Assembly: GCF_003344865.1 (NCBI RefSeq)
Contig: NZ_CP031165.1
Coordinates: forward strand, 4,035,910-4,099,909
Length of the DNA: 64,000 nt
Source of the DNA: Euzebya pacifica
Lineage (GTDB): Bacteria > Actinomycetota > Nitriliruptoria > Euzebyales > Euzebyaceae
Direction: 5' to 3'
In this document: one piece after another, positions 2,040-43,080 of the stretch
How the letters are laid out: the number at the start of each line of letters is the position of its first letter
How positions within the stretch are numbered: the first letter of the stretch is position 1
Notes under the pieces: generated by a model
Told to the model about the DNA's origin: nothing
The model's database searches: none
What the model saw: only the letters and a program-made list of their open reading frames with translations
Program-made: the position numbers and the translations under genes

Positions 2040-2082
2040 GGCGGCGCCTCCCTCTTCTCTTCTCGCTGTCCGGTTGCTGGGC

Positions 2083-10189: not shown

Positions 10190-10201
10190 TCCTGCTCGGG
10201 C

Positions 10202-10233
10202 AGAGGGGCAGTCGGTTCGCCGGCTGCCCCTCT
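10202..10233 (+). terminator. Terminator after the M28 peptidase gene
   Basis: A stem AGAGGGGCAG/CTGCCCCTCT (10202-10211 with 10224-10233), extended inward by further pairs, lies 13 bp after the peptidase stop and ends in a short T/C-rich run. Confidence 0.75.
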
Positions 10234-10339
10234 TCCGTGTCCGCTCCCCTACCCGGGCAGAACCTCGCGCGTGTCGTTCGCAATGGGGGCCACGTCATGC
10301 GTGCGGGGTCCGAGCGGTTGCTCGGACCCCTCACGAAGG

Positions 10340-11449: not shown

Positions 11450-11501
11450 CTCGGGTCTCCTCGGTGGGCCGTGCCGCCAGGGCGGCACGGCCCGGGCGGG
11501 G

Positions 11502-11843
11502 TCAGCGGCGGATCGCCACGTACCAGGTCAACATTTCTTCGTCCGTGCTGGACCAGATGCTGTGTTCCATGCCGGGCGGGTTGACGAAGGTGTCGCCGGC
11601 CTGGACCTCGACCTCGCCCTCCGGAGTTGCCACGACGCCCTTGCCACGAATGATGTAGTACAGCTCTGGGTTCTTGTGGGCGTTGCCGAGCGGAAGGGGC
11701 GTGTCGCTCGGCTTGTACGAGGCGACTCCGCCGACGGCTCCGTACTCGGCACCGCCAAGGGTCTCGGGGTACAGCAGCCGCCAGATGCGGCGTTCGTCGT
11801 TCTCGTCGAGCTCGACGTCGTTGATGTTTCGGACTTCGATCAT
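11502..11843 (-). CDS. Small cupin-domain protein
   Basis: Single-domain cupin (113 aa) with motif 1 around 'HKNPELYYIIRGKGVV' and motif 2 around 'AGDTFVNPPGMEHSIW', including the His/Glu positions that usually hold a metal. Substrate unknown; such proteins act as isomerases, dioxygenases or small-molecule sensors. It sits between the PLP enzyme and the CDF exporter on the same strand with about 50-bp gaps, so it is probably co-transcribed and may process the compound handled by the importer. Confidence 0.8.
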   Translation of the reverse strand: MIEVRNINDVELDENDERRIWRLLYPETLGGAEYGAVGGVASYKPSDTPLPLGNAHKNPELYYIIRGKGVVATPEGEVEVQAGDTFVNPPGMEHSIWSSTDEEMLTWYVAIRR

Positions 11844-18209: not shown

Positions 18210-19608
18210 GGCTGAGTCCCGTGGGGTGGTGGAAGTAGAAGGTCACCGTTCGTGAAGTTGTTGGCAGGCTATGCCGCGGTGGTGGTGGCTGTCACCTCGA
18301 TGGTGGTGTCGGCGGCGATGGTCTTCATGGATTCCTCGGAGAAGTAGCTGCGTTCGGCGACTTGCCATTCGTCGTGCTGCTCGAGCAGGACGGCGCCGAT
18401 GAGGCGGATGATGGAGTTGTCGTCGGGGAAGATGCCCACCACGTTGGACCGGCGCTTGATCTCTTTGTTGACCCGTTCCAGCGGGTTGGTTGACCACACC
18501 CTGCGCCAGTGGGTCCTGGGGAACGCCGCGAACGCGGTGAGATCGGGTTCGGCGTCAAGCAGCATCTGGGCCGCGGCGGGGAACCGGTCGGTGAGCATGT
18601 CGGCGACGGCGCGGAGCTGGGCGGTGACGGCGGCCTGGTCGGGCTGGGCGTAGATGGTGCGGATCATGGCGGTGACCATCTCGCCGTGGGCCTTGCCGAC
18701 CCGGGCCAGGACGTTGCGGTTGAAGTGGACCCGACAACGCTGCCACGCCGCGCCCTGCAGGTGTCGGCGGATGGCGGCCTTCAACCCTTCGTGGGCGTCG
18801 GAGATGACCAGCTGCACACCACCGAGTCCGCGGGTCTTCAAGCTCTTGAGGAAGGCGCCCCAGAACGCTTCGTCCTCGCTGTCGCCCACGTCCAGCCCGA
18901 GGACTTCGCGGGTGCCGTCAGCGGCGACGCCGAACGCCACGACGATGGCGCGCGACACCACGTGGCGGCCGACGCGGCCCTTGACGTAGGTGGCGTCGCA
19001 GAACACGTAGGGGAAGTCGGTGTGGGCCAGGGTGCGGGCTCGGAACGCCTCGACGTGCCCGTCGATCTCCTTGCAGATCCGCGACACCGTCGATTTCGAC
19101 ACGCCCGAGTCCACGCCGAGTGCCTTGACGAGGTCGTCGACCTTGCGGGTGGAGGTGCCCTTGACGTAGGCGGTCATGATCACCGCCCACAGGGCCTGAT
19201 CGACCCGGCGGCGCGGCTCCAGCAGCGACGGGTAGAAGTTGCCGGCCCGAACCTTGGGGATCGCAAGCTCCACATCACCAGCCGGTGTCGACAGGGTCCG
19301 GGGTGGCCGGTGGCCGTTGCGCTGCCCCGTCCGGTCATCGGTGCGCTCGTGCAACGCCGCCCCGATTGAGGCGGTCAGCTCTTCCTCGATCAGTGTCTGC
19401 AACGCGTTCTGGAGCAGATCGCGAAACAGGCTGCGGTGCTCCTCGGTCAGCAGGTTCGTCGCAGCGTCGGTCAGCAGGTCATTATCAATGTCGGCCATCG
19501 TGTGGCCCCTTTCGAGAGATCCGTGGAAAGACCTCACGAACAGTCACACGGTGGCCAACACCGTCTGGGGAACCAACTCCGACTTACACCTGTTGCCGGG
19601 ACTCAAAC
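18210..19608 (-). mobile_element. IS256-family insertion sequence (1,399 bp)
   Basis: The element is bounded by imperfect terminal inverted repeats: over 32 aligned bases about 21 match, including a shared TGAGTCCCG and AAGT with a G-rich middle. It is flanked by the 8-bp duplication GGCCATCA. It carries one transposase gene on the minus strand. A second, internal 17-bp inverted repeat (18242-18258 and 19531-19547, 14 of 17 matching, around GTTCGTGA) may be a subterminal transposase site. It disrupts the binding-protein gene. Near-perfect ends and an intact transposase suggest a fairly recent insertion. Confidence 0.88.
18269..19498 (-). CDS. IS256-family transposase
   Basis: DDE transposase (409 aa). 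The catalytic triad is visible: Asp in 'FPYVFCDATYVKGRVG', Asp in 'VQLVISDAHEGLKAAI' and Glu in 'NPLERVNKEIKRRSNVVGIF', with the family's 'WQRCRVHFNRNVL' C/H region between them. Length matches intact family members (about 400 aa). ATG at 19498 follows AAAGGGG. The coding frame is uninterrupted, so the enzyme is probably active. Confidence 0.95.
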   Translation of the reverse strand: MADIDNDLLTDAATNLLTEEHRSLFRDLLQNALQTLIEEELTASIGAALHERTDDRTGQRNGHRPPRTLSTPAGDVELAIPKVRAGNFYPSLLEPRRRVDQALWAVIMTAYVKGTSTRKVDDLVKALGVDSGVSKSTVSRICKEIDGHVEAFRARTLAHTDFPYVFCDATYVKGRVGRHVVSRAIVVAFGVAADGTREVLGLDVGDSEDEAFWGAFLKSLKTRGLGGVQLVISDAHEGLKAAIRRHLQGAAWQRCRVHFNRNVLARVGKAHGEMVTAMIRTIYAQPDQAAVTAQLRAVADMLTDRFPAAAQMLLDAEPDLTAFAAFPRTHWRRVWSTNPLERVNKEIKRRSNVVGIFPDDNSIIRLIGAVLLEQHDEWQVAERSYFSEESMKTIAADTTIEVTATTTAA

Positions 19609-29045: not shown

Positions 29046-30713
29046 CTACTTCGTCGTCGCCTTCTCCCGGTGTCGTCCGCCGGGCCGTCTGCGGGGCTTG
29101 ACTTCCTTCTGCGGCCGTCGGTCGTCAGGGGTCTCTCCATAACCGTACGCGTAGCTGTACCCGTAGCGGTAGGCGTAGTCGCCGTAGCCGGCCCCGTCCA
29201 GCTTGGCCTTCGTGTAGATGTATCCAAGCACAGGCGTACCGATCCGGTCGAGCCGCTCGCGCATCTCCTCGAGCAGCTTCATGCTGGTACCACGGGAGAC
29301 GACCACGACGATTCCGTCGACATTGGTCGCGATCGCGGAGGCATCGGACGCAAGCAGCAGGGGCGGCGAGTCCACGATGATCAGGTCAGCTACCTCTCTG
29401 AGTCGCGTGATGGCCTGACGAAACCCGGGGGTTCTGAAGAACGCCGCAGTATCATCGCCAAGCGACTTAGCCGGGATAAACGGCACGTACTGTCCCTCGT
29501 CAGCGGTCAGCGGCACTATTATCTCCGACAAGTTGTTCCGAGGGTCGGCCAAGGCCGGGAGACCACCGGTGTCCTTGGCTCCCAGGCGTCGGGTCAGACC
29601 ACGAACACGAGTGTCGGCGTCTACCAGAACGACATCCCTTCCGTCTTGTGCAGACGCCACTGCGAGGTTAAGACAGGTTACAGTCTTGCCATCTACCGGT
29701 GAGGCAGACGTGAGCACAACGGACTGCCCCCCGGTCTCGGCGAGTGCGAACGCCAGGGCGCCAACGAGAAACTGATAGGCTTCGCCGGCTGGGGACTTGG
29801 GGGCCTCCACGGTGGGCACAGAACCAGTGAGGCCGATCTCCTCGAAGCTTGGGACAGTTCCAAGAAGCGGCGCCTTGAGCATCCGCGAGGGATCGTTTCG
29901 GCCGTCTGCGGTGGCCGTCTCGTCCGCACGCCACCAAGCGAGCGCAGCAGCAGCCAACGCCCCGAGGAAGCACGCCAAAACGGCGTTCCTGACCGGGGTC
30001 GGCGCAGAGGGGCTTTCGGGAACGTCGGCACGCTCGAAGAGCTCGACACCAGAGCCGAACAGTGTGGAGTCCACAGCAATCTGGTCCGCTCGACTATCGA
30101 TCATGATCAGTTGGCTGACGGCTGCGTCGCGTTCCGCCCGAGCGCTGGCATCAGTCGGGGAAGCAGCGAGCCTCGCTTCCGCAGCCGCGATGGCGTCTTC
30201 AAGTGCCGCCCGCTGAGTCTGGAGCTCACTCAGCGATGCCTGAGTCGACCGTTCCGCCTCCTCGCGAACCACCGCCTGATACGCCTCCCCGATGGCGTTA
30301 GCAATCTGCGCGGCTCCCGACGCCGTCCCGTCGGTAGCGCTGATGCTTAGTTGATCGAGGTCTGACGCAGGCCGAATCCGCGACTGCTCTCGAACCTGAT
30401 CCGAGTCCAATCGACCGCCAAGCAGCACACTCGCGCGCTCGGCCACGGCGTTCGATTGGGCGAACTCGGCTTGATTCCGGACATACCGAGAGGGGTCCAA
30501 AAAGTTTACCCCAGTCTCGCCGAACAACCCGGTGTTCCGAGGGTCCGCGAGAAGCAGGTCGGCTTCAGCCGTGTACCGCAAGGATTGCAGAGCCGACAAC
30601 CCGAAGCCGAGCAAGCCTGCTGCGACTCCGACAAGCAGTATCCGTCCGATACTTGACCTCAGCACCCCGACAAGGGCTTCTACACTTGTGGCCGGAGCCT
30701 GCAACGAGTCCAT
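29046..30713 (-). CDS. Polysaccharide co-polymerase / bacterial tyrosine kinase (Wzz-BY-kinase)
   Basis: Single-chain chain-length regulator (555 aa). The Wzz domain is bracketed by two membrane segments (about residues 20-40 and 270-290), with a coiled-coil periplasmic part. The cytoplasmic kinase domain has Walker A' 'TSASPVDGKTVTCLNLA', Walker A'-B 'VVLVDADTRVRG' and 'LIIVDSPPLLLASDAS'. The C-terminus carries a dense Tyr cluster ('GYGDYAYRYGYSYAYGYGE'), the usual autophosphorylation tail. It controls polymer length together with the Wzx/Wzy genes upstream. ATG 30713 overlaps the flippase 3' end. Confidence 0.93.
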   Translation of the reverse strand: MDSLQAPATSVEALVGVLRSSIGRILLVGVAAGLLGFGLSALQSLRYTAEADLLLADPRNTGLFGETGVNFLDPSRYVRNQAEFAQSNAVAERASVLLGGRLDSDQVREQSRIRPASDLDQLSISATDGTASGAAQIANAIGEAYQAVVREEAERSTQASLSELQTQRAALEDAIAAAEARLAASPTDASARAERDAAVSQLIMIDSRADQIAVDSTLFGSGVELFERADVPESPSAPTPVRNAVLACFLGALAAAALAWWRADETATADGRNDPSRMLKAPLLGTVPSFEEIGLTGSVPTVEAPKSPAGEAYQFLVGALAFALAETGGQSVVLTSASPVDGKTVTCLNLAVASAQDGRDVVLVDADTRVRGLTRRLGAKDTGGLPALADPRNNLSEIIVPLTADEGQYVPFIPAKSLGDDTAAFFRTPGFRQAITRLREVADLIIVDSPPLLLASDASAIATNVDGIVVVVSRGTSMKLLEEMRERLDRIGTPVLGYIYTKAKLDGAGYGDYAYRYGYSYAYGYGETPDDRRPQKEVKPRRRPGGRHREKATTK

Positions 30714-30723
30714 GGGATTCAGC

Positions 30724-32007
30724 CTACCGGACCGGTGCGCCTCGAGTAGATGCACCCCGCCCCTCACCTCGGCGGACACTCTTACGACTCGCAAAGAAGA
30801 ACCACACGCCTTTCGCCGCTGACCCCACGAAGAACCCCCACGCCACCGCGACGTCCGTTCCAACTGCGACCCCTGCCATAGTTGCCAGCAGAACAAGCAA
30901 ACCGCCTCCACAGGCCGCCGCCAGCAATAGGGAGTGCTCGGATGTGGCCCGAAGGTACGTGCCAAAAACGACGTAACTAGCCCCCGATCCGACCGCCAGG
31001 GCCATCGGAATTAAGGAATCAGCCACTTGAAGATGCTGCACCACACCAATGGCGGTCTCAGATATAGAACGTAGCGGCCCGTGTAGGAGGTAGGCATAGG
31101 CAGCCATCCCAGCCACGACAAAGGTCATGATCCACACCACTGGGCCACGCAAGGCCGACCGATCCTTACCCATACGTACCAACTGCGGCAGGAGTGAGAG
31201 GCGAACACCCTGGAGCACGATCCTGCCTGGAGCGAGCAGGGCTTGCGCGGCAGTGAACGTTCCGAGCAAAGCCGAACCTCCCAAGGTGCCTACTACCACA
31301 ATGACACCTTGATTCGTAGCAGCAACCACAACTGACTCAAGACTTAACATCCGCCCAGTGGCCCAAGTCGATTTCAGCCAACTTGAAGAGGACCTCGGAC
31401 CGCCCACCGGACGACCCACCACCAACACCCCCACAAGAATGGACGCAACTGCCCCGGACGCCCAACACACCACGACGGTTGGACCCGACAAGGACGACCT
31501 GCCCAAACCTGCTACCACACCAACGGACCACACCAACCACACTGCGTCAAGGAGAACTGCGATTCCCGGTCTATTAATGACGAATGTGTACGCTCTGATG
31601 GTGTCCTGAAGTAGAACGAAGGGAACGAGAACTGCAATAAGAAGACCGACCACGCTTCCGGCCCCACCGTCAAGCACGATCAGTGCTGCACTGATCGACC
31701 CAACTATGATACCTATCGTCAATGAAATTCCCCCGGCATCCCGGAGGGTCGCCACGTCCGTATGATGGTCATACAGAGAACCGCGGCCCATATGGATCGC
31801 CATTGGCTCAGCTACCAGCCCGCGGTTCAGAAGTAGACCGGAAAGCGCGACGGAGACCGCCAGGGAGATGTCCCCTAAGGCGACAAGGCCATACCAATTG
31901 GCGACGACCAAGCTTAAGAGAGTGTTACTGGCGCTGTATAGGAGCTGATCGGTCGCACCCAGCAGCAGCGGCCCAACTCTACCACTCCTCAACGGAACAA
32001 GCTTCAA
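30724..32007 (-). CDS. Polysaccharide flippase-like membrane protein (Wzx-like)
   Basis: Polytopic membrane protein (427 aa) with about 12 hydrophobic segments and few charged loops, consistent with the MOP-superfamily lipid-linked oligosaccharide flippases. Recognisable features are 'YSASNTLLSLVVANWYG' in TM1-2 and paired helices ending 'FFVGSAAKGVWFFFASRK'. The start is TTG at 32007, overlapping the Wzy stop (TTGA). Assignment rests on topology and location between Wzy and Wzz. Its GC content is lower than in the flanks. Confidence 0.75.
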   Translation of the reverse strand: MKLVPLRSGRVGPLLLGATDQLLYSASNTLLSLVVANWYGLVALGDISLAVSVALSGLLLNRGLVAEPMAIHMGRGSLYDHHTDVATLRDAGGISLTIGIIVGSISAALIVLDGGAGSVVGLLIAVLVPFVLLQDTIRAYTFVINRPGIAVLLDAVWLVWSVGVVAGLGRSSLSGPTVVVCWASGAVASILVGVLVVGRPVGGPRSSSSWLKSTWATGRMLSLESVVVAATNQGVIVVVGTLGGSALLGTFTAAQALLAPGRIVLQGVRLSLLPQLVRMGKDRSALRGPVVWIMTFVVAGMAAYAYLLHGPLRSISETAIGVVQHLQVADSLIPMALAVGSGASYVVFGTYLRATSEHSLLLAAACGGGLLVLLATMAGVAVGTDVAVAWGFFVGSAAKGVWFFFASRKSVRRGEGRGASTRGAPVR

Positions 32008-33221
32008 GACCCATCACACAGCTCACTCAGAGCTGGGGTGGCCCCTGATCTGTCCCATGTCCTCATCGGCACGCCCGCAAGAGAAACCCCGATGAGAGGG
32101 AGAGCCCTAGAGTCATACAAATCCCCACTAAACTGCGCGGCGACTAGGAACAGCGAAAATAGCGCCAAGGCTGTGGGATCGACTGCCCTCCCTCGCCATA
32201 AGACTACTAGGGTGACAAGAACCGAACCCAAGAGCAGAAAAGCGACCACAGGCCCTGCCTCACAACCAACTTCTAGGAACACATTGTGTGGATACGTACC
32301 GTGCTGATACTGGAAGCCGGCCAATCCCGTACCGCTCGGCCACGATCCCCGAAGACACTCCAAACCTTCAGCGTACAGTGTTCCACGCCCGGCCAAATGC
32401 ACCTGATCGCCGAGGGTCAACTGAAGGAACCGCACGTTAAAGGTGTACGAGAGACGCTCTGCCACTCCATCCGCTTGCCAAGCCGAGAACGAAACTAAGA
32501 GTGCACTCACGGCAAGACCGGCACCAAGGCGAAGCCTACCGAACCTTCGAGCCATCAATGAAGTCGCTTCTTTGCCGGCCAAGAGCAACCCCACCACCAC
32601 AGAAATGATCCCTCCCCGGGAACCGGTCCCCAACGCTAGAAGGAGGCCGAGTAGACAGATCCAAAGGTACGGAAGGCGTCCCGATTGAGCGTACTTGCCC
32701 AGGGAAACAACTGAAAGTACACCCATTAGTCTCACGAATACGTTCGGCCCGCCTCCCAAAGGCACCGCTCCGCCCCCAACTATCGAAAGCCCCGCTAAGC
32801 CCAATGTCAGATAGAAAAGAGACGTATACAGGCCGATAGCGAACAGTTCTCTATTGTGTGTGTCGGCGGTGAGGCGCAACAACGCTAAGCCGACCGCAGT
32901 CAGTAGCGCCACGTCCGCCATCTTCTCTTCCCACACGGGCCCAGAAGCACCCGACTCGATGCCCGTGACTAATATCGCGAACAGCACTCCGAGCCACAGA
33001 ACTCCGGGGAACTTCGAACGGATATATGGACTCCTCCAACTCGCACTCCCCGCAAGCACACAAACGATGCTCACCAGAGCGCCTCTAATCGTCCAGGACG
33101 GAAGGAATGCACTCCCGAGTCGGTCTGGCGACCAACGCCCGAGGAGCAGCAGGAGTGCTGTAAGTAGGGACGCGATGCCTACCACAGAACTCCAGGGGGA
33201 AGCCGCCTCCCTATCGTTCAC
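32004..33221 (-). CDS. O-antigen polymerase/ligase-like membrane protein (Wzy-like)
   Basis: 405 aa with about 10-12 membrane segments and the characteristic large extracytoplasmic loop of the Wzy_C/O-antigen ligase family (about residues 280-340: 'RGTLYAEGLECLRGSWPSGT', 'YPHNVFLEVGCEAGP'). The 'HNVFLE' loop motif is typical. It would polymerise repeat units in the periplasm-equivalent space. GTG start inside the GT4 gene end. Confidence 0.85.
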   Translation of the reverse strand: MNDREAASPWSSVVGIASLLTALLLLLGRWSPDRLGSAFLPSWTIRGALVSIVCVLAGSASWRSPYIRSKFPGVLWLGVLFAILVTGIESGASGPVWEEKMADVALLTAVGLALLRLTADTHNRELFAIGLYTSLFYLTLGLAGLSIVGGGAVPLGGGPNVFVRLMGVLSVVSLGKYAQSGRLPYLWICLLGLLLALGTGSRGGIISVVVGLLLAGKEATSLMARRFGRLRLGAGLAVSALLVSFSAWQADGVAERLSYTFNVRFLQLTLGDQVHLAGRGTLYAEGLECLRGSWPSGTGLAGFQYQHGTYPHNVFLEVGCEAGPVVAFLLLGSVLVTLVVLWRGRAVDPTALALFSLFLVAAQFSGDLYDSRALPLIGVSLAGVPMRTWDRSGATPALSELCDGS

Positions 33222-34452
33222 GCACAGCCCACGTGCTGATGACGACTTGACTGAGGAGTACCTCTAAGGCATCGACCACCCGACCAACCTCGAAGTTGAG
33301 ATACGCATAATCTATCATAGGCAGCGACCGACCATCGCCCAAGCTTCGGGACCGCGCGATAAGACGGGCTAAAGCTTCGGCGACCTGTGAACTGTCGTAA
33401 CTTCGGCACACAAGGACGTCAGGTACCTGATCAATAGGCGTCTCGGACGAGGATACCACTAACGTGGGCCTTCCAGACGCAACATAGTCGAACAACTTGT
33501 TCATGCTCATGCCATAGCGATACAGGTGTGGCTGATCTGCCACGACCATGACGAGGGCGCCAGTGGAACAAAGAACCTCTGGTACCTGTGCCTTGGGAAC
33601 GGCACCCATAAACACGACCTGGTCAGTCAACTCGAAAGCGGATACTAGGCGTTCAAGCGCCGGGCGCTCAGGTCCATCGCCGTAAACCTCAAATCGCGAC
33701 TCGATACCCTGATCCCGCAACGAGGAGAAAGCGTGAATCAGGACGTCCAACCTATTGGCGCGACCCAAGGCTCCCACATACCGAACTAAATCAGGGGAGT
33801 TCACATCCCGCGTGAGCGCAGTCTCGACCAGACTGCTGTCAAACCCATTCGGCGCATGAAGAAGTCTCACACGCGCAGTCGGATATGTCGAACGAATGTA
33901 CTCTCCCACGCGGTTCGGCAGAAACGTCACCGCCGCCGCAGAACGAACCAGATATCCCTCGAACAGTGATAGGAAGGCGGTGAGCCACTTGGGCAGTCGT
34001 GAATGGGCTGCAAGGCTCGCGGGCCACAGGTCTCGCACCTCTAGGACGAGGGGCCGGCCCCATCTGCGGGAAAGTACGGCGGTGGCCACGGCCCCAACTG
34101 GATGCGGAGTCGACGCTATCACCACGTCGGGATCGAACTTTCGGCCCTTTCCCAACACGCCTAGGACCAAGAGTATGGAGACTGCAAAGCAGGCCATGGA
34201 CGTGGCCCGTTTGAGGATTGAACGTCGGTACGTCAGACCCCGCAACCATAGAAACGGCACTCCGTCTTCAGTCCCGTACCAGAACAGACCATGAGGGGCG
34301 CGCTTGTGGGTCCCGGTGTTATGATTGGCGGAACTCGCAACGATTAGAACGTCATGACCACGATCGATAAGCCGTCTCGCTTGGGAGTAGTGCCTGGTCC
34401 CACCCGGAACATCAGGTGGTTTGGCATAGTCGTTGACAAGAAGAATACGCAT
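33211..34452 (-). CDS. Glycosyltransferase family 4
   Basis: GT-B retaining glycosyltransferase (413 aa) with N-terminal 'GGTRHYSQARRLIDRGHDVL' and the donor-binding C-domain ('FEVYGDGPERPALERLVSAF', 'VFMGAVPKAQVPEVLCSTG'). The last part has the conserved E/D-rich donor region 'MNKLFDYVASGRPTLVV'. It adds a sugar to the lipid-linked precursor; donor unknown. ATG 34452 lies just downstream of the FemAB-like gene stop. Confidence 0.9.
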   Translation of the reverse strand: MRILLVNDYAKPPDVPGGTRHYSQARRLIDRGHDVLIVASSANHNTGTHKRAPHGLFWYGTEDGVPFLWLRGLTYRRSILKRATSMACFAVSILLVLGVLGKGRKFDPDVVIASTPHPVGAVATAVLSRRWGRPLVLEVRDLWPASLAAHSRLPKWLTAFLSLFEGYLVRSAAAVTFLPNRVGEYIRSTYPTARVRLLHAPNGFDSSLVETALTRDVNSPDLVRYVGALGRANRLDVLIHAFSSLRDQGIESRFEVYGDGPERPALERLVSAFELTDQVVFMGAVPKAQVPEVLCSTGALVMVVADQPHLYRYGMSMNKLFDYVASGRPTLVVSSSETPIDQVPDVLVCRSYDSSQVAEALARLIARSRSLGDGRSLPMIDYAYLNFEVGRVVDALEVLLSQVVISTWAVRER

Positions 34453-34454
34453 GC

Positions 34455-35486
34455 CTAAGGGACTTCCGGATTGGCATATGGCGGAAAGAACGAATAGTCG
34501 ACAGTTCCCGACATACTTGCAATTTTTTGTCGGAACAGTTCGTCGTTGAGTACAAGTCTGGCCGTGCAGAAGGGCTGGACAACGTCGGCAATCGAGTGCT
34601 TAAACTTCGCCAAGGAATCGCCCGGCCGGACACCTCCGCCTAGTTCGAACCATTCAAATCCTTCATCGATGGCCCATCTAACTACTCCATCTATGAGCAA
34701 GTTATTGACGCCAAGGCGCGCACCCTCTTTGAGAGATCCTGCCAGGAAGTAATGAACATATCGACCCGCCGTCAAAAACAGAGCCGCCGCAACAGCATCC
34801 TTATTCGAATTGGCCGTCGCTAATACTAGGTGTCCACCTTGTCCCAATCTCTCTAACGAACGGTAGTAGTCGGCCTCGTACCTGTAGCTTGACGACGCCG
34901 CCACTCGATCCATCGTCGCATTGTAAAGGCGCACGAAGTCGGACCCTGCAGACAGACTCGTAGACCCTGCTATCTTAATGTCTATCTCAAGCCCTGACGA
35001 ACGCGCCTTTCTTACAGCGGTCCGATGTCGCCCCTTGGCGGCATCCCAGTATGAGTCAGCACCCTTCCTGAGGTCCACCCAGAATGTCCGAGACACGGTG
35101 TCTATGGATGATCGCAACACATGCAGAGACTCCACTCCCTTATCCAGGAAGGGGTGTATTCGGTCAAATATCGTGACGCACCCGGAGGTGCGGAGGTGTT
35201 CAACCGCACGCGCTACGAATGCTGCCATCATACGGGGGTCCTGCCGGTCTCCACCCCTCAAGTGAACTGGTCCACCGTAGCCTGCAGGTCCACTGAGATC
35301 GAAATTCTTTGATTCCGGCGCCGTTTGCCGTCGGAAGAGTGGCCAAATAATTTCCGATTCTGTATCGATCAAGATATAGGGGTCCCAACCCGTGCGGACG
35401 ACTTCGGCCTCTAGATAGTTGTGCATATAGAAGATATCGGGCGCGGGCAAGCCACTCAGTGACTCTAGACTCCTAAGCACTCTCAT
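34455..35486 (-). CDS. FemAB-like (GNAT-fold) transferase in glycan locus
   Basis: 343 aa with two GNAT-like halves as in FemX/FemA peptidoglycan aminoacyltransferases. 'FDLSGPAGYGGPVHLRG' and 'FWVDLRKGADSYWDAAKGRH' belong to the first half; 'FVRLYNATMDRVAASSSYRY' and 'YFLAGSLKEGARLGVNNLL' with 'FELGGGV' to the second. The latter motif marks the FemAB family in exopolysaccharide operons. The long coiled insert of true FemA enzymes is absent. A role in acylating an amino sugar with an acyl or aminoacyl group is inference. ATG 35486 is preceded by GAAGGG inside the sulfotransferase gene; the TTG at 35504 is the alternative. Confidence 0.75.
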   Translation of the reverse strand: MRVLRSLESLSGLPAPDIFYMHNYLEAEVVRTGWDPYILIDTESEIIWPLFRRQTAPESKNFDLSGPAGYGGPVHLRGGDRQDPRMMAAFVARAVEHLRTSGCVTIFDRIHPFLDKGVESLHVLRSSIDTVSRTFWVDLRKGADSYWDAAKGRHRTAVRKARSSGLEIDIKIAGSTSLSAGSDFVRLYNATMDRVAASSSYRYEADYYRSLERLGQGGHLVLATANSNKDAVAAALFLTAGRYVHYFLAGSLKEGARLGVNNLLIDGVVRWAIDEGFEWFELGGGVRPGDSLAKFKHSIADVVQPFCTARLVLNDELFRQKIASMSGTVDYSFFPPYANPEVP

Positions 35487-36294
35487 GGTCGATGGACCCT
35501 TCAATAGTCGCTTTAGCTACCGCTTCCCGAACGTCGTTCACAAGACGGGCGTCCCTGTTTTCTGCATCGGCAAGGAGGTCGAAATGGACTACGAGCGCCA
35601 AGTGTTCCAGTGCATCCAAAGCAGATTCAATATGAGCCACCTGAATCGACGCTTCTTCGCGTACATCACCAGAGAGGTTGGCCTGCATGGTGGGCATCCA
35701 CGGACCCAACCATTTCGCGTACCTTGGATCGCGTTCACGGATACGAACGATAGACTCTACTATGTCATTCGTCGCTCGCCTGGTTCGCACGAATACTGTT
35801 GGTGGTCCTTCACGAAGCCACTGCTCCAAGAAGGGGAGAACATGAAACCCCTTCATCAGAACGGGCCCGGCTACGTACTGCGAGATCATGCCAAATTGCT
35901 GTCGGCACGCATCCCAGTCGGGTGAGTGTTGATAGTTTCCGTCGATACCGTATGGGAACCCCAGTGCCTCCGTCCAGAATCGTCCGAATTCGTGAGGCTC
36001 ATGTGGCCACTTGGTTTGGCCGATGGTGCTGCGATGTGCACCTGTGCTTTGGTAGTGGCCGCCGGTCAACGCATCATGCAGTGCGAATCCGTATATTGGC
36101 ATCGCCCAGAAGCGGGCAACAATGTTGGAGGGGTATGCGTATTCTCCGCTGGATGCAAGGATTTGCATTGCCACCGTGGTGCCTGATCTCGGTGCGCCCA
36201 CGACTAGGACAATTGGAGCTTGCGACGCCGCCTGATCAAACGGAAGGTTTGCCAAGTGAACGTTGAGGCGCTTGATAACCTCGTCTGTTTTCAC
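35473..36294 (-). CDS. Sulfotransferase family protein
   Basis: PAPS-dependent sulfotransferase-type enzyme (273 aa). The 5'-phosphosulfate loop is 'VVGAPRSGTTVAMQILASSG' (about residues 31-50) and the 3'-phosphate motif is 'VRTRRATNDIVESI'. It starts at GTG 36294, overlapping the sugar-transferase stop by 4 bp (GTGA). It would decorate the exported polymer or its lipid-linked precursor with sulfate; anionic sulfated polymers are frequent in marine bacteria. It could also act on another hydroxyl or amine acceptor. Lower GC than the flanks. Confidence 0.8.
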   Translation of the reverse strand: MKTDEVIKRLNVHLANLPFDQAASQAPIVLVVGAPRSGTTVAMQILASSGEYAYPSNIVARFWAMPIYGFALHDALTGGHYQSTGAHRSTIGQTKWPHEPHEFGRFWTEALGFPYGIDGNYQHSPDWDACRQQFGMISQYVAGPVLMKGFHVLPFLEQWLREGPPTVFVRTRRATNDIVESIVRIRERDPRYAKWLGPWMPTMQANLSGDVREEASIQVAHIESALDALEHLALVVHFDLLADAENRDARLVNDVREAVAKATIEGSIDHESA

Positions 36295-36911
36295 GGTGTA
36301 TCAATCCGTTTAGCGTGTCTAGCTGGATCTTGGTCCGCTTCGAATCCTCCAAAAGCCAACGACAACGGAGTGCGGAGGATAATTTTCATGTCATCTAGCA
36401 GATTCCGATTGGAGACATAGTCAGCATCCCACTGCAGCCTTTCGCGCCATCCGATGGAATTTCGCCCGTGCACTTGGGCCAAACCTGTCAGGCCCGGTCT
36501 TACGGTGAACCGGGGGTGCCTCACCGATAGGGACAGTCTTCGCCGTTGCTCCTCGGTGATTGGTCGTGGGCCAACAATGGCCATCTGTCCCCTAAGAACG
36601 GAGATCAATTGGGGCAGTTCATCCAATCCCGTGCGGCGTAGGATACTACCAGATCGGGTCAAACGAGACGCTGTAGGTACTCCGTCGGGACCCAAGAGGG
36701 AATCTGCGTTGTTCACCATGGTGCGAAATTTGAGTACCGTTATTTTGGTGCAGTTTAGTCCGAGCCGTTGCTGCTTAAATATGACGGGTCGGCCGTCTAG
36801 CACCCTGATGAGTAGCGCAACTACGGCCATGACGGGCAAGGCTAGGGGCGCCGCCAAGATGACGAAGGCCAAGTCAAGGAGTCGCGAAGCGTCGGATGTG
36901 CGTCTGAACAT
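36291..36911 (-). CDS. Small monotopic phosphoglycosyltransferase (PglC/WcaJ-C type)
   Basis: First committed transferase of lipid-linked glycan synthesis (206 aa): transfers a sugar-1-phosphate from a UDP-sugar to undecaprenyl phosphate. One membrane-embedded helix ('DLAFVILAAPLALPVMAVVA') then the catalytic domain with 'KQQRLGLNCTKITVLKFRTM' and 'RRTGLDELPQLISVLRGQMA' followed by 'IVGPRP'. There are none of the extra N-terminal helices of the long WbaP/WcaJ form, so it belongs to the compact PglC class, which usually takes a diacetamido-type donor. That fits with the dehydratase and DegT enzymes here. Confidence 0.88.
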   Translation of the reverse strand: MFRRTSDASRLLDLAFVILAAPLALPVMAVVALLIRVLDGRPVIFKQQRLGLNCTKITVLKFRTMVNNADSLLGPDGVPTASRLTRSGSILRRTGLDELPQLISVLRGQMAIVGPRPITEEQRRRLSLSVRHPRFTVRPGLTGLAQVHGRNSIGWRERLQWDADYVSNRNLLDDMKIILRTPLSLAFGGFEADQDPARHAKRIDTP

Positions 36912-36923
36912 GGCAGTCTTTCC

Positions 36924-38225
36924 TTAGCGCTGGACGCGTCCGCCGCCGACGACGACGCGGGCGACGCCCCTCCAGCGGGTGGGGTCGGTGATGTTGCGGC
37001 CGTCGGCGAGGGCCTTGATGCCGGGGATGTCGGTGGGGGTCAGGTCGCGGTACTCGGGGTGGTCTGCTTGCAGCAGCGCGCCGTCGGCGGGTTCGCCCAG
37101 GTGGTAGGCGTCGAAGCCCATCGCGGCGAGCTCGTCGTCGGTGTACAGCGGGTCGTGCACGACGGGGACGGCACCGCGGTTGCGGAGCTCCTCCACGACG
37201 GGGAAGACACCGGAGAAGGCGATCTCCTTCACCCCGCCACGGAAGGCGGCGCCGAGCACGACGATGCGGCGGCCGAGCAGGTCCCCGAGGGCTTCCTTGA
37301 GCAGCCCGACGGTGTGGGCGGGCATGGCCTCGTTGGCGGTCCGTGCGGTGGTGACGAGGTCGGCGTCGCGGTGGCCGGCCAGGTACAGGCGTGGGTAGAC
37401 GGGGATGCAGTGGCCGCCGACGGCCACACCGGGGGTGTGGATGTGGCTGTAGGGCTGGCTGTTGGCGGCGGCGATGACCTTGTGGACGTCCACGCCCATC
37501 CGGTCGGCCTGGATCGCGAAGGTGTTGGCCAGGGCGATGTTGACATCGCGGTAGGTGGTCTCGGCGAGCTTGGCCATCTCCGCGGCCTCGGCCGAGCCGA
37601 GGTCCCACACCCCGTTGGGCTGGGGCAGCTCGGGCCGCTCGTCGAAGTCCAGGATCGATTCGTAGAACGCCACCGCCCGTTGGGTGGAGGCCTCGTCGAT
37701 GCCGCCGACCAGCTTGGGGTAGCGGGCCAGGTCGGCGAAGATCCGGCCCGAGTAGACCCGCTCGGGGCTGTGGCAGACGAACAGGTCCTCTCCCGGGGTG
37801 AGGCCGCTGCCCGACGCCAGCGCGGGGACCAGCCGCTGGCGGGTGGTGTGCAGCGGGATGGTCGTCTCGTAGCACACCAGCGTGCCCGGCTGCAGCCCGG
37901 CGGCGACCGCGGCGGTGGCAGCGTCCATGGCGGCGAAGTCGGGAACCATGTCGGCATCGACCACCAGCGGCACCACCACGATCACCGCCTCGCTGCGCGA
38001 CACGCAGTCGATGGTGTCGGTGGACGCGGTCAGTGATCCGTCGGCCACGACCTGCTTGAGCCGCACGTCCAGGTCGGTCTCGCCCGGGAACGGCTCGCGG
38101 CCGGCGTTGACCAGGTCCACCACCGCCTGGCTGATGTCGGCCCCGTGCACACGATGGCCCTTGCCGGCGATCTGCACGGCCAGCGGAAGGCCGATCTTTC
38201 CCAGCCCGACTACGGTGACGTCCAC
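36924..38225 (-). CDS. UDP-sugar 6-dehydrogenase (WbpA/WecC-type)
   Basis: NAD-dependent nucleotide-sugar dehydrogenase (433 aa) with Rossmann start 'VTVVGLGKIGLPLAVQIAGK', 'VGGHCIPVYPRLY' carrying the catalytic-type Cys, and a C-terminal UDP-binding domain ('VVLGAAFRGGVKEIAFSGVF'). The GTG at 38225 follows AGGTAG and begins right at the Rossmann fold. Sequence type is closer to UDP-HexNAc dehydrogenases, giving a uronic acid. It forms a tight set with the Gfo/Idh and DegT genes, as in the WbpA-WbpB-WbpE route to 2,3-diaminouronic acids. Confidence 0.88.
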   Translation of the reverse strand: MDVTVVGLGKIGLPLAVQIAGKGHRVHGADISQAVVDLVNAGREPFPGETDLDVRLKQVVADGSLTASTDTIDCVSRSEAVIVVVPLVVDADMVPDFAAMDAATAAVAAGLQPGTLVCYETTIPLHTTRQRLVPALASGSGLTPGEDLFVCHSPERVYSGRIFADLARYPKLVGGIDEASTQRAVAFYESILDFDERPELPQPNGVWDLGSAEAAEMAKLAETTYRDVNIALANTFAIQADRMGVDVHKVIAAANSQPYSHIHTPGVAVGGHCIPVYPRLYLAGHRDADLVTTARTANEAMPAHTVGLLKEALGDLLGRRIVVLGAAFRGGVKEIAFSGVFPVVEELRNRGAVPVVHDPLYTDDELAAMGFDAYHLGEPADGALLQADHPEYRDLTPTDIPGIKALADGRNITDPTRWRGVARVVVGGGRVQR

Positions 38226-38232
38226 GACTTCG

Positions 38233-39228
38233 CTACCTCTCGATGGTGATGGTCTGCTTGCTGGCAGCCGCCGCCAGGACGGCCTCGGCAACCCGGACAG
38301 CCTCCAGGCCCTCCCCCATGGTCACCACCCCCGACGCCTCGCCGAGGACGGCGTCACGGAAGGCTTCCAGCTCGGTCCGCAACGGCTCGGGCTTGGCGAT
38401 GGCGTAGCGGGTCACGTCACCCTCCACCACACCACGGAACGCCCCGATGGCGTCCCACTGGGTGGCCTGGGTGCCGTTGGCATGAAACGTCAGGTCCGCG
38501 GTCAGGGTGTCGGCCACGAAGGCGCCCTTCTCCCCCAGCACCACCGTTCGCCGTTCCTTGTACGGCGACAACCAGTTGACCATGTGGTTGGTCACCGTGC
38601 CGTCCACGAGCATGCCCGTCGCCGCCACCAGGTCCTCGTGCGGCCGACCCGTCTTGTGGGCGGTCCTGGCCGAGATCGACTCAAACGGCGACCCGCCCAC
38701 GAACGCCGTCAGGTCCACATCGTGGGTGGCGAGGTCCTTGACCACCCCGACGTCCTTGATCCGCGCCGGGAACGGGCCCTGCCGCGACGTGGCGATCTGG
38801 AACACCTCACCCAACTCGCCGGCCTCCAACCGCTCACGCAACGCCCGCAACGCCGGGTTGAACCGCTCGATGTGACCGACCGCCCCCACCAGCCCGGCCC
38901 CCTCGAACGCCTCCGCGACCCGTTCGGCCGCCTCCAGGGTGTGGGCCAGTGGCTTCTCCACCAGCACGTGCACCCCCGCATCGGCCAACAGCAACGCCAC
39001 CCGCTCGTGATCCTCCGTCGGCACCGCCACCACACACAGGTCCACCCCCGCCTCAACCAGCGCCTCCGGTGAACTGTGGACCCTCGCCCGGCCGGCCGTG
39101 CCGAACCGGTCGCCCTGCGGATCAGCGATCCCGACCAGCTCCACCCCATCCAGCCCCGACAGCACCCGCACGTGGTTGCGGCCCATCATCCCCATGCCGA
39201 TCACACCGGCACGCAACACCTCAGCCAT
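38233..39228 (-). CDS. Gfo/Idh/MocA-family NAD(P) oxidoreductase (WbpB/WlbA-like)
   Basis: 331 aa: N-terminal NAD-binding 'RAGVIGMGMMGRNHVRVLSG' and a substrate-binding C-domain with 'VEKPLAHTLEAAERV' (the family's EKP motif) and 'VGHIERFNPALRAL'. In WbpB/WlbA this enzyme oxidises C3 of a UDP-GlcNAcA-type sugar, making the ketone that a DegT enzyme aminates. The start codon overlaps the DegT stop by 8 bp, and the order with the dehydrogenase supports the same pathway. Confidence 0.87.
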   Translation of the reverse strand: MAEVLRAGVIGMGMMGRNHVRVLSGLDGVELVGIADPQGDRFGTAGRARVHSSPEALVEAGVDLCVVAVPTEDHERVALLLADAGVHVLVEKPLAHTLEAAERVAEAFEGAGLVGAVGHIERFNPALRALRERLEAGELGEVFQIATSRQGPFPARIKDVGVVKDLATHDVDLTAFVGGSPFESISARTAHKTGRPHEDLVAATGMLVDGTVTNHMVNWLSPYKERRTVVLGEKGAFVADTLTADLTFHANGTQATQWDAIGAFRGVVEGDVTRYAIAKPEPLRTELEAFRDAVLGEASGVVTMGEGLEAVRVAEAVLAAAASKQTITIER

Positions 39229-40279
39229 GGCTGTTCACCGCCGTGACGATCGTCTCGAGCTCCTCATCGGTGAGGTCCGGCCGCACCGGCAACGACAACA
39301 CCTCGCGGGCCGCCCGCTCGGTCTCCGGCAGGTCCAGTGACAACCCGAAGGACGGCAACCGGTGCACCGGTGTGGGGTAGTACACCCCCGCACCGATCCC
39401 CGCCCCGCGCAGGTGTTCAAGCAGCCCGTCACGATCAGCCGACCGCACCGTGTACTGGTGGTAGACATGCGACGCCCCCTCCGCCACCGGCGGCGTCACC
39501 ACACCCGCCAGCCTGGAGTCAAGCGTCTTGGCGTTCGCCTTCCGGGTCGCCGTCCACCCCTCCACCTTGCGCAGCTGCGCCCGACCGATCGCCCCACCCA
39601 GATCCGTCAGACGGGCGTTGAACCCCACGACCTCGTTGGCATACCGCGCCTCCATCCCCTGGTTGCGCAACAACCGCAACCGGCGAGCCACCGCCTCGTC
39701 CCTGACCACGACCATCCCACCCTCGCCCGTGGTCATGTTCTTGGTCGGATAGAAGCTGAACATCGCCACGTCACCCAACGCCCCCACCGGCATGCCCTGC
39801 CACGACGCCAGATGCGCCTGCGCCGCATCCTCCACCACCAACAACCCATGACGAGCCGCCAACGCGCCGATCGCGGTCATGTCCGCCGGATGCCCGTACA
39901 GATGCACCGGCACAACCGCAACCGTCCGCGGCGTGATCGCCGCCGCCACCGCCGCCGGATCGATGTTGAAATGGTCCCGCTCGATGTCGACGAACACCGG
40001 TTCCGCACCACACAACCGCACCGCGTTCGCGGTCGCCGCGAACGTGAACGACGGCACGATCACCTCATCCCCCGGCCCGATCCCCAACGCCAACATCCCC
40101 AGGTGCAGACCCGTCGTGCCAGCGCTGACCGCCACACAGATCCGGCCATCGACATGAGCGGAGAACTCCTCCTCGAACGCCGCCACCTCCGGACCCTGAG
40201 CCAACATCCCCGAAGCCATGACACGCAAGACGGCATCACGCTCCTCAGGACCGATGATGGGACTGGAAAGATGAATCAT
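39221..40279 (-). CDS. DegT/DnrJ/EryC1 sugar aminotransferase (WbpE-like)
   Basis: PLP sugar aminotransferase (352 aa). 'SFYPTKNMTTGEGGMVV' contains the internal-aldimine Lys; 'AVSAGTTGLHLGMLALGIGP' is the cofactor-phosphate region. It overlaps the Gfo/Idh gene and is co-directional with the dehydrogenase. The expected reaction is amination of a C3-ketone (WbpE), completing three of the four steps to a 2,3-diacetamido uronic acid; no acetyltransferase (WbpD) is next to it. Sequence is unusually C-rich at wobble positions. Confidence 0.9.
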   Translation of the reverse strand: MIHLSSPIIGPEERDAVLRVMASGMLAQGPEVAAFEEEFSAHVDGRICVAVSAGTTGLHLGMLALGIGPGDEVIVPSFTFAATANAVRLCGAEPVFVDIERDHFNIDPAAVAAAITPRTVAVVPVHLYGHPADMTAIGALAARHGLLVVEDAAQAHLASWQGMPVGALGDVAMFSFYPTKNMTTGEGGMVVVRDEAVARRLRLLRNQGMEARYANEVVGFNARLTDLGGAIGRAQLRKVEGWTATRKANAKTLDSRLAGVVTPPVAEGASHVYHQYTVRSADRDGLLEHLRGAGIGAGVYYPTPVHRLPSFGLSLDLPETERAAREVLSLPVRPDLTDEELETIVTAVNSHG

Positions 40280-40516
40280 GGAACCTTCAATCAGGCATTC
40301 GTCTAGGATCTACGGGCGCTCAGGCAGGCCGTTGCCCAACCCTTGGCAGCATGGCCAATACTCCGTCTGGCTTGCCGGCCGAACTGCGACGTCAGATGGG
40401 CGTCAACGGCACACCTTCGCGTCCTGGCATGCGCGAGCCCTCCCACCCCTGTGTCGATGTCACGCTGGAGCATGTGACGGATCGAATCCTAACCTGTTCC
40501 GCGAATCGACGAAGAA
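40280..40516. other. Intergenic region between two aminotransferase genes
   Basis: About 240 bp with no supported gene. Composition is mixed. It probably carries the promoter for the WbpE-WbpB-WbpA-like operon, but I see no clear -35/-10 pair or RNA motif. Confidence 0.4.
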
Positions 40517-41656
40517 TCACAAGAGGACTGATCTCAGACCTTGTATGACTCGGTCCAAGTTCGACTCGGTCAGGCTCGATCCCGACGGGAGACAAAGACC
40601 GCGGGAGAACAGCCGATCTGCGGTTGCTGCCTCCGGGGCCAGGGAATGAAGGTGACAAGCCTCGAAAACAGGTTGGCGGTGCATGGGCTTCCACAGAGGC
40701 CGAGCCTCGATTTCCGACTCGGCCAGACGATCGCAGAGATCGTGGGGCGAGACGTCCGCGGGGGGGTCGAGCAGGATGCAGGTGAGCCAGTGGTTGGGAG
40801 CTCCGTAGTCGACAATGGGCATGAAGGACACGCCGGCGACATCACAGAGGGCTTCTTCATAGGCGGCGCGGATCTGCTTTCGTCGTTCGATCAACTCCGG
40901 CACCCGTGCCAACTGGGCGCGCCCGACAGCAGCCAAGAGGTTCGACAACCTGTAGTTGAAGCCAACCTCTTGGTGCTCGTAGTGCAGGACGGGTTCCCGT
41001 GCCTGCGTGGCCAAGTATCGAGCCTTCGACACGACATCCACGTCCTGTGACAGCAGCATTCCGCCGCCGCCAGAGGTGATCAGCTTGTTCCCGTTGAAGC
41101 TCAACGCGGCGGACCGGCCGAATGTCCCAGCAGCCTTGCCGCGGTAGGTCGTTCCCAAAGCCTCGGCCGCGTCCTCCACTACTGGGATGTCGTAGGCATC
41201 GCATGCAGCCAGGATCCGGTCGTAGTCACACGCTTGCCCGTACAGATCGACAGGGACGACCGCAGCGGGGAGCCGGTCATCCTCGGCCGCGGATGCGAGC
41301 GCTTTCTCGAGGACCGACGGATCCATCTGCCACGTGGCCGGGTCTGCGTCGATGAAGACGGGCGTTGCCCCCTCGTACACAATCGCGTTTGCGGTGGCGG
41401 CAAAGGTCAGCGTTGACGTCCACACTTCGTCGCCCGGGCCCACGCCCAGCATGCGAAGGCTGAGATGCAGCGCAGCGGTGCCGCTGGACAGAGCCACCGC
41501 CCCGCCCTCCGGGAGACCGAGGAACTCGGCCATCTCGGCTTCGAACGCGGCCAGGTCGGGGCCCACCGGAGCCACCCAGCCGGAGTCGAAGGCGGCCATC
41601 AGCGCCTCGCGCTCGGCCGGCCCCATGTCCGGCGGCGAGAGGTAGATACGTTCCAT
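40517..41656 (-). CDS. DegT/DnrJ/EryC1 sugar aminotransferase (PglE-like candidate)
   Basis: PLP aminotransferase (379 aa) with 'LSFNGNKLITSGGGGMLLS' (internal aldimine Lys) and 'ALSSGTAALHLSLRMLGVGP'. 'VEDAAEALGTTYRGKAAGTF' matches C4 aminotransferases of 4-amino-4,6-dideoxy sugars (PglE type). It could work on the 4-keto sugar from the PglF-like dehydratase at 22258-24171. It is separate from the other DegT gene by about 240 bp and may be the first gene of the locus. Confidence 0.87.
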   Translation of the reverse strand: MERIYLSPPDMGPAEREALMAAFDSGWVAPVGPDLAAFEAEMAEFLGLPEGGAVALSSGTAALHLSLRMLGVGPGDEVWTSTLTFAATANAIVYEGATPVFIDADPATWQMDPSVLEKALASAAEDDRLPAAVVPVDLYGQACDYDRILAACDAYDIPVVEDAAEALGTTYRGKAAGTFGRSAALSFNGNKLITSGGGGMLLSQDVDVVSKARYLATQAREPVLHYEHQEVGFNYRLSNLLAAVGRAQLARVPELIERRKQIRAAYEEALCDVAGVSFMPIVDYGAPNHWLTCILLDPPADVSPHDLCDRLAESEIEARPLWKPMHRQPVFEACHLHSLAPEAATADRLFSRGLCLPSGSSLTESNLDRVIQGLRSVLL

Positions 41657-41660
41657 CCCG

Positions 41661-43025
41661 CTAACCGTCGATCACCGGAACGCGGCTCATCGCGTCGGCG
41701 ATCTTGGCCTCGGGGTAGTCGTAGTCGTGGAGCTCGCTGGAGAAGTAGGCGTCGTAGGCGGCCATGTCGAAGTGGCCGTGGCCGCAGAGGGCGGTCAGGA
41801 TGACGCGCTCCTCCCCATCCTCCTTGGCCTTCAGGGCCTCGCGGATGGTGCCGGCGAGGGCGTGTGAGGGCTCGGGTGCGGGGACGATGCCCTCGGTGCG
41901 GGCGAACTGCACGGCCGCCTCGAAGCACTCGACCTGGCCGATCGCCTCGGCCTCGAACAGGTCCTCCTCGTACATGTGGCTGATCAGCGGCGACATGCCG
42001 TGGTACCGAAGCCCGCCGGCGTGGATGGGGTCGGGCACGAAGTCGTGGCCCAGGGTGTGCATCTTCACCAGCGGCGTCATCCCGGCGGTGTCGCCGAAGT
42101 CGTAGCGGTACTCACCCTTTGTAAGCGACGGGCAGGCGGCCGGCTCGACGGCGATCACCCGGGGGTTGATCGACCCGCCCAGCTTCTCGCGCAGGAACGG
42201 AAAGGTCAGCCCGGCGAAGTTCGACCCGCCGCCGGTGCAGCCGACGATCACGTCCGGCGTGTCACCGACCTTGGCGAACTGCTTCAGCGCCTCCTCACCG
42301 ATGACCGTCTGGTGCAGCAGCACGTGGTTCAGCACGCTGCCCAGCGCGTACTTGGTGTCCTCGTCCTTGACCGCCATCTCCACGGCCTCGCTGATGGCGA
42401 TGCCCAGGCTGCCGGGCGAGTCCGGGTAGGACGCGAGGATCGCCCGCCCGGCCTCCGTCAGGTCCGACGGGCTGGAGTGGATCGTCGCGCCCCACGTGCG
42501 GATCATCGACCCGCGATACGGCTTCTGGGTGAAGCTGGCTGCCACCTGCCACACCTCGAGCTCCAGCCCGAACTGCGCACACGCAAACGACATGGCCGAG
42601 CCCCACTGCCCCGCACCCGTCTCGGTGGTGATCCGCTTCACGCCCGCTTGGGCGTTGTAGTACGCCTGCGGCACCGCGGTGTTGGGCTTGTGGCTGCCCG
42701 CCGGGCTGACCCCCTCGTACTTGTAGTAGATCCTCGCCGGAGTGCCCAGCGCCTTCTCCAGCCGACGCGCCCGATACAGCGGGCTCGGACGCCACAGCTT
42801 GTAGACCTCGCGGACCTCCTCGGGGATGTCGATGTACCGCTCGGCCGACACCTCCTGCTCGATCAGCGCCATGGGGAACAGCGGCGCCAGGTCGTCGGGA
42901 CCGATCGGCTGGTGCGTGCCCGGGTGCAGCGGCGGCGGAGGCGGCGTCGGCAGGTCCGGCACGATGTTGTACCAGGCGGTCGGCAGCTCGGACTCGTCGA
43001 GGAGGATCTTGGTGAGGTCGCTCAT
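41661..43025 (-). CDS. trpB2: TrpB2-type tryptophan synthase beta-like protein
   Basis: PLP enzyme (454 aa) of the stand-alone TrpB2 class. It has '[20 protein letters not shown]' (PLP Lys), '[20 protein letters not shown]' and '[16 protein letters not shown]'; the long N-terminal extension and '[20 protein letters not shown]' are typical of TrpB2 and differ from TrpB1. No trpA gene is nearby, as is usual for this class. It condenses indole or a related nucleophile with serine/threonine-derived aminoacrylate. ATG 43025 gives the normal start '[11 protein letters not shown]'. Confidence 0.9.
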
Positions 43026-43080
43026 GTTGATGTCGATGTATAGAGGTACTGACGGTTCGAGCGCCACCCCGTTCTACGCT

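Follow-up and report, generated by a model that had tools for sequence, protein, structure and literature searches.

The polysaccharide locus and its low-GC cassette

In the window of Euzebya pacifica DNA that we analysed (64,000 nucleotides), a gene for a PAPS-type sulfotransferase (ST; 35473-36294, 273 aa, GTG start), a divergent member of PF13469, and a gene for a FemAB-like acyl/aminoacyl-transferase (PF13480; 34455-35486, 343 aa from ATG 35486) lie side by side on the minus strand. In the sequence, the 3' end of the ST gene overlaps the 5' end of the FemAB-like gene by 14 nt (35473-35486) with the latter start, or by 32 nt with the alternative start TTG 35504 (349 aa, ORF 34455-35504); ATG 35486 is the likelier start, with GAAGGG just upstream in a by-eye reading. 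The ORFs found here bear out the initial annotation, which had described the two genes as overlapping in the interval between a GT4 glycosyltransferase and a phosphoglycosyltransferase gene. The small phosphoglycosyltransferase (PGT; PF02397, 206 aa) gene (36291-36911, minus strand) overlaps the start of the ST gene by 4 nt, and the gap between the end of the FemAB-like gene and the GT4 gene (33211-34452, minus strand, assigned by Pfam) is 2 nt. These are followed on the same strand by genes for a Wzy-like polymerase (32004-33221; 31.0 bits to PF04932 versus a cut-off of 31.7) and a probable Wzx flippase (30724-32007), a hydrophobic protein that had no match in Pfam, is assigned from its position and sequence, and has weak matches in two other loci. 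Because neighbouring genes overlap or, in the case of the FemAB-like and GT4 genes, are 2 nt apart, the head-to-tail run PGT-ST-FemAB-GT4-Wzy-Wzx, which extends from 36911 downwards, almost certainly constitutes one operon.

The minus strand also encodes a Wzz/Wzc-like chain-length protein with a P-loop domain (29046-30965), a PglF/CapD-type UDP-GlcNAc 4,6-dehydratase (PF02719; 22258-24183; 188 bits to the PseB model versus a cut-off of 408), an NDP-sugar 6-dehydrogenase of the UDP-GlcNAc/ManNAc type (36924-38291), a GFO/IDH oxidoreductase resembling the UDP-GlcNAc 3-dehydrogenase WbpB (38233-39228), a DegT aminotransferase that is WbpE-like by context (39221-40279), and a second DegT aminotransferase of the LegC type (40517-41656; 364 bits to TIGR04181 versus a cut-off of 420). 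A TrpB-like PLP enzyme (41661-43067) is encoded immediately upstream of the LegC-type aminotransferase, and a Mutator-family transposase (18269-19537) lies close to the locus. The polymer locus proposed initially is of the Wzx/Wzy type. Since GT4 is the only glycosyltransferase besides the PGT that Pfam detected among 30 window gene calls, which cover part of the window's genes, the repeat unit is likely to be short.

The segment from approximately 31000 to 36923 has a GC content of 0.55-0.57, compared with about 0.69 in its flanks, and its third-position GC is 0.57-0.61, versus 0.77-0.92 in the neighbouring sugar genes. At an E value of 0.001, neither the ST nor the FemAB-like protein had a match in the family's 4 other genomes, 3 of which are those of congeners. 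The start of this cassette coincides with the edge of a three-gene sugar block (36926-40280), a second copy of which, with 96.4% identity, is located at C1:2050354-2053708. The low-GC block of ~6 kb looks like a horizontally acquired segment that was swapped into the Wzx/Wzy locus.

Elsewhere in the genome, CysD and a CysN-CysC fusion for PAPS synthesis are encoded at a distance of 7-12 kb from the window, and another site encodes a second APS kinase; therefore, PAPS can be made. The former genes belong to a cluster (L050:7695-12943, C1 about 4.0237-4.0289 Mb) in which genes for a GGDEF protein and a DUF421 protein accompany those for CysD and the CysN-CysC fusion. No hexapeptide acetyltransferase was found in the window, and the genome's 6 matches are located at 3 other places. 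A NeuD/WbpD-like hexapeptide acetyltransferase encoded at C1:5.324 Mb could act in trans, which rules out the FemAB-like protein as the genome's sole possible sugar N-acetyltransferase.

Conserved residues and predicted folds of the two enzymes

The ST scored 23.1 bits against PF13469, below the gathering cut-off of 27, whereas its relatives clear this cut-off at 36-60 bits; its assignment therefore rests on family conservation and fold. In an alignment of 43 sequences chosen from 93 ST frames, the window ST included, residues R36, G38, Q44, N57, G92, K148, R173, S181 and Q218 are invariant. The sequence GAPRSGTT at residues 33-40, of which T39 is kept in 41 of the 43 sequences, fits GxPRSGTT, which we take to be the 5'-PSB loop of PAPS sulfotransferases, and R173 and S181 presumably represent the 3'-PB signature, an Arg and a Ser 8 apart. 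As judged from sequence, both PAPS-binding signatures are whole. The best solved folds for the AlphaFold2 model (pLDDT 88.8) are those of mycobacterial STF1 (Z 13.7) and STF9 (Z 13.0), with other sulfotransferases and most kinases scoring at a Z of about 10. The predicted fold, the intact signature residues and the PAPS synthesis genes in the genome agree with the initial assignment, and the protein is a putative PAPS-type sulfotransferase.

The window ST is nevertheless divergent. It carries E at position 245, where 39 of the 43 sequences have P, and consists of 273 aa, compared with mostly 305-345 aa, missing ~50 poorly conserved C-terminal residues; the ST of locus L102 (275 aa) is an equally short member of the alignment. 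It also forms the longest branch (3.39) of a tree of 81 rows, with a best identity of 30%; in this tree, L096 (<200 aa) and L032-L035, whose contigs are already represented by four of the best 80 loci described below, were omitted, and L089 was trimmed to its last 330 residues. Because of the long branch, the score below the Pfam cut-off, E245 and the short C-terminus, the window ST could be altered or decaying.

The FemAB-like protein scored 55.9 bits against PF13480 (cut-off 22) and 27.2 bits against the FemAB family PF02388 (cut-off 24). With the equivalog model of the cell-wall enzyme FemX (NF047883), it reached 26.9 bits, far from the cut-off of 500; this score and the location in a polysaccharide operon give no clear assignment to cell-wall bridges. 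Its AlphaFold2 model (pLDDT 92.9) adopts a tandem GNAT fold and matched FemX at a Z of 25.2, with 299-305 residues aligned, followed by FemA (24.4), the peptide synthases Sbb17/Sba18 (23.6-23.8), which depend on aminoacyl-tRNA, and the MprF/A-PGS lipid aminoacyl transferases (18-20), whereas CoA-type tandem GNATs scored 14.5 or less. Two of the three Sbb17/Sba18 PDB entries contain streptothrisamine. The predicted FemAB fold, whose closest solved counterparts use aminoacyl-tRNA, is consistent with the earlier designation as a peptidoglycan-bridge-type transferase. To our knowledge, no acyl-CoA-dependent PF13480 enzyme is among the solved folds matched by the model, and the fold ranking therefore cannot settle the donor.

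For the conserved residues, we aligned 40 FemAB-like sequences chosen from the Actinomycetota loci with a FemAB match and from 52 FemAB frames. The sequence [RQ]xxGx[GA] is the pyrophosphate-loop motif of acyl-CoA GNATs. It occurs in 0 of the 40 sequences over the stretch of the alignment that corresponds to residues 246-272, a weak indication given that this loop can vary. Residue K296, which is kept in 38 of the 40 sequences and absent from two, aligns with Lys305 of FemX, called catalytic in an excerpt of a 2026 review, which also describes the glycylation of streptothrisamine from Gly-tRNA by Orf11 (PMC12945691). From the model and these residues, an aminoacyl-tRNA appears to be a more likely donor than acyl-CoA, the balance being close to even.

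Distribution of the pair and its gene neighbourhoods

The initial annotation had regarded the combination as rare in actinobacteria. This proved correct for that phylum: among 396 Actinomycetota genomes, ST matches are present in 7, FemAB matches in 19 and both in only 3, the two being adjacent in 2 (E. pacifica and G382) and on different contigs in the third (G292). In G382 (locus L031), the FemAB gene lies between two sulfotransferase genes whose best families differ. From the FemAB side, no ST was found within 1.5-kb flanks in the 18 other Actinomycetota loci. Rarity does not extend to bacteria elsewhere, where the pair is widespread, as described below.

A single-sequence query found no ST relatives in genome contigs. 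A scan with an ST-only alignment and profile, using one genome per species, confirmed 101 relatives, and the best 80 of these were analysed further; locus counts represent profile matches on open frames. The selection of these best 80 of 101 loci made no use of FemAB, yet in 37 a FemAB-like frame is at most 400 nt from the ST, with both genes on one strand in 35 cases; 43 have none within this distance and 34 have none at all. The frequency of FemAB frames in this set falls steeply with distance from the ST, from 40, spread over 39 loci, within the first kb (0.272/kb) to 5 at 1-2 kb (0.036/kb), 2 at 2-3 kb (0.016/kb) and, beyond 3 kb, 3 in 713 kb (0.004/kb).

The count of 37 uses stop-to-stop frames. 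With assigned start codons, 36 same-strand pairs were drawn from 82 loci (the best 80 of 101, L031 and the window), omitting L057 and L073, in which the FemAB gene is on the opposite strand, and any gap of at least 400 nt, including that of L066, one of the 37, in which the order is ST-PGT-FemAB. In 29 of these 36 pairs, the genes are at most 30 nt apart, and in 20 they abut or overlap. The ST gene comes first in 21 pairs and the FemAB gene in 15; on the ST tree, adjacency is retained through at least 4 changes of order. Distances between STs and between FemAB-like proteins are correlated (Spearman 0.45; 0 of 2,000 permutations as high), for which joint inheritance alone would also suffice. 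The hosts of the pair belong to at least 11 phyla at NCBI rank (Chloroflexota, Myxococcota, Pseudomonadota, Cyanobacteriota, Planctomycetota, Calditrichota, Deinococcota, Bacteroidota, Actinomycetota, Thermodesulfobacteriota and Bacillota); Bradymonadaceae, Aminicenantes, Dojkabacteria and KSB1 are further hosts, named outside this ranking. Culturable species in which the two genes are adjacent include Janibacter corallicola, Sinomicrobium weinanense and Alteromonas flava. The ST-FemAB pairing is a module conserved across phyla, beyond chance. Two ST-FemAB pairs (1205-3152 and 9929-11751) occur within about 10 kb in the Notoacmeibacter locus L102.

The window order PGT-ST-FemAB on one strand recurs in 6 of the best 80 of 101 loci (L059, L063, L067, L075, L080 and L102), in hosts of the Deinococcota, Chloroflexota (twice), Bacteroidota, Gammaproteobacteria and Alphaproteobacteria, and a DegT gene lies downstream in five of the six. 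L057 and L073 show this arrangement with the FemAB gene on the opposite strand. Within 2 kb of the ST, DegT genes occur at 0.123/kb and PGT genes at 0.046/kb, versus 0.020-0.034/kb at 2-8 kb and 0.005/kb or less farther out, respectively. L063 and L075 encode DegT proteins of the LegC type, as does the window at 40517-41656; for the DegT proteins of L080, L061 and L013, PseC gives the best score. Furthermore, on a planctomycete metagenome contig (L057:132-1814), a PGT (PF02397) and an ST (PF13469) share a single open frame (561 residues) that adjoins a FemAB-like gene; this natural fusion connects the ST with priming. In the 18 FemAB loci that lack an ST within 1.5-kb flanks, a DegT gene is directly beside the FemAB gene in 3, and a PGT gene is present in the flank in 5.

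In two ST clades, a hexapeptide-type acyltransferase is found near the ST instead of a FemAB-like protein. Within 5 kb of the ST, 5 of the best 80 of 101 loci have both, 41 FemAB only, 18 hexapeptide only and 16 neither, some of the last being on short contigs. The Fisher p for this exclusion is 5e-5, uncorrected for kinship and with a hexapeptide profile built from two sequences only; as the 18 hexapeptide-only loci fall into two clades (12 and 6), we count them as two replacement events. In Thermoleophilia (L032:7080-8279 and L033:9951-11066), the ST neighbour is an unusual fusion of a lipoyl/biotinyl-type domain, PglD_N and hexapeptide repeats. Where no FemAB adjoins the ST, the neighbour is in some loci a WbqC-like protein or a methyltransferase. 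The absence of a neighbour family from the VIA-align lists does not exclude its presence. WbqC-like proteins (PF08889) adjoin the ST as a recurrent neighbour in L114, L103 and L108, and L103:8928-9995, considered as a hidden FemAB, was unsupported (hhalign probability 1%).

Proposed function and comparison with known systems

We consider the chance just short of even that the two proteins are a sugar-decorating pair of this Wzx/Wzy surface-polysaccharide locus, carried in the low-GC cassette, in which the FemAB-like enzyme N-acylates an amino sugar and the ST sulfates that sugar, probably the priming one. From the proximity of DegT and PGT genes and the clades with hexapeptide replacement, we infer that the amino sugar N-acylated by FemAB would be one made by DegT. 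A UDP-4-amino (or 3-amino) sugar would be produced by the 4,6-dehydratase together with a DegT aminotransferase, and its amine would be N-acylated, perhaps N-aminoacylated, in the cytoplasm by the FemAB-like enzyme, which would take the place held elsewhere by PglD/WbpD-type hexapeptide acetyltransferases. The PGT would then load the sugar on undecaprenyl phosphate, the ST would add sulfate from PAPS, probably to the priming sugar or else to its neighbour, and the decorated unit would be exported by Wzx and then polymerised by Wzy. The initial interpretation is partly supported by our analysis, and its guess of an aminoacylated (or acylated) and sulfated extracellular polymer is chemically reasonable. 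A wider version, in which the PGT-ST-FemAB-DegT module makes, in many phyla, sulfated surface glycans bearing an amino acid from charged tRNA on an amino sugar, seems to us rather doubtful.

Much depends on the donor. That the FemAB-like protein instead draws on acyl-CoA, as an N- or O-acyltransferase that would acetylate or acylate the polymer in the way proposed for HfsK and add no amino acid, is a serious possibility, if somewhat below an even one. It fits with PF13480 as the best Pfam family, with the hexapeptide-type acyltransferases that replace FemAB near the ST in two clades, and with the placement of HfsK, a FemX-like protein with two GNAT domains, in an N-acetyltransferase family in the relevant passages of PMC5362036; however, these passages do not demonstrate the HfsK donor, the nearest solved folds are tRNA-dependent, and nearly all of the aligned sequences retain the catalytic lysine of FemX but none the CoA loop. 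Doubt about the ST itself leads to another alternative, namely that it is inactive, being fast-evolving and C-terminally short, and that the FemAB modification alone is made. The long branch, the low Pfam score, the short length and E245 would fit, but the nine invariant columns include the window protein, its frame is open and overlaps its neighbours, and the L102 protein is just as short, so that we regard inactivity as unlikely. Still less probable is that the two enzymes act on different molecules, such as a lipid and peptidoglycan, and are neighbours only through residence in a variable surface locus. Both kinds of enzyme have lipid, protein or wall substrates elsewhere, and the low-GC block looks horizontally acquired, with no match in the 3 congeners; against this stand the neighbouring position of the two genes in at least 11 phyla, in either order and for the most part abutting, the PGT-ST fusion of L057, and the low score with the cell-wall FemX model.

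What is new in these results is that the pairing is not a local oddity but a widespread module. We found no description of an ST-FemAB pair in the literature, a result of little weight since only open-licence papers were covered. In passages of two papers, sulfated polysaccharides in bacteria are stated to be exclusive to cyanobacteria (PMC8205485, PMC13390465), and excerpts of two others report sulfated capsule structures from marine Gammaproteobacteria (PMC11641403, PMC11766843). As a marker of candidate producers of sulfated polymers in at least 11 phyla, the pair would allow the true extent of their distribution to be tested with genome sequences. Should aminoacyl-tRNA be the donor for the FemAB partner, precursors of protein synthesis would be tied to exopolysaccharide chemistry, outside peptidoglycan and lipids.

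Among known systems, the FemX/FemA peptidoglycan-bridge transferases provide the best fold match and have a catalytic Lys with an equivalent in the FemAB-like protein, which differs in falling far under the FemX equivalog cut-off and in its polysaccharide locus. Orf11 and Sbb17/Sba18 (streptothricin-type, aminoacyl-tRNA-dependent; PDB 9wqw, 9wqx and 9wqy) have the FemABX double-GNAT fold in common with it, but they belong to an antibiotic pathway, Sbb17/Sba18 show 17-19% identity, and the excerpted account mentions no ST partner. HfsK of the Caulobacter holdfast, for which there is indirect evidence of exopolysaccharide modification, is c-di-GMP-controlled and, unlike the window pair, has no ST mentioned in the passages concerned (PMC5362036). 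The synechan xss locus of Synechocystis is, as here, a polysaccharide locus with an ST function, STs are present in the capsule loci of Vibrio sp. KMM 8419 and Cobetia marina KMM 1449, and Actinoplanes missouriensis has two STs in the polysaccharide locus wps-1; no FemAB partner is described for any of them in the portions of the reports that deal with these loci. According to the same portions, a BioF2-like acetyltransferase and a DegT of A. missouriensis are encoded in wps-3, apart from the wps-1 STs, and export in the compared sulfated-polysaccharide loci is by Wzx/Wzy or ABC systems. Mycobacterial STF1 and STF9, the closest solved ST folds, show 11-15% identity to the window ST. Finally, the 4,6-dehydratase, DegT aminotransferase and small PGT of the PglF-PglE-PglD-PglC pathway are also present in the window, which has a FemAB-like protein in the place of PglD and, in addition, an ST.
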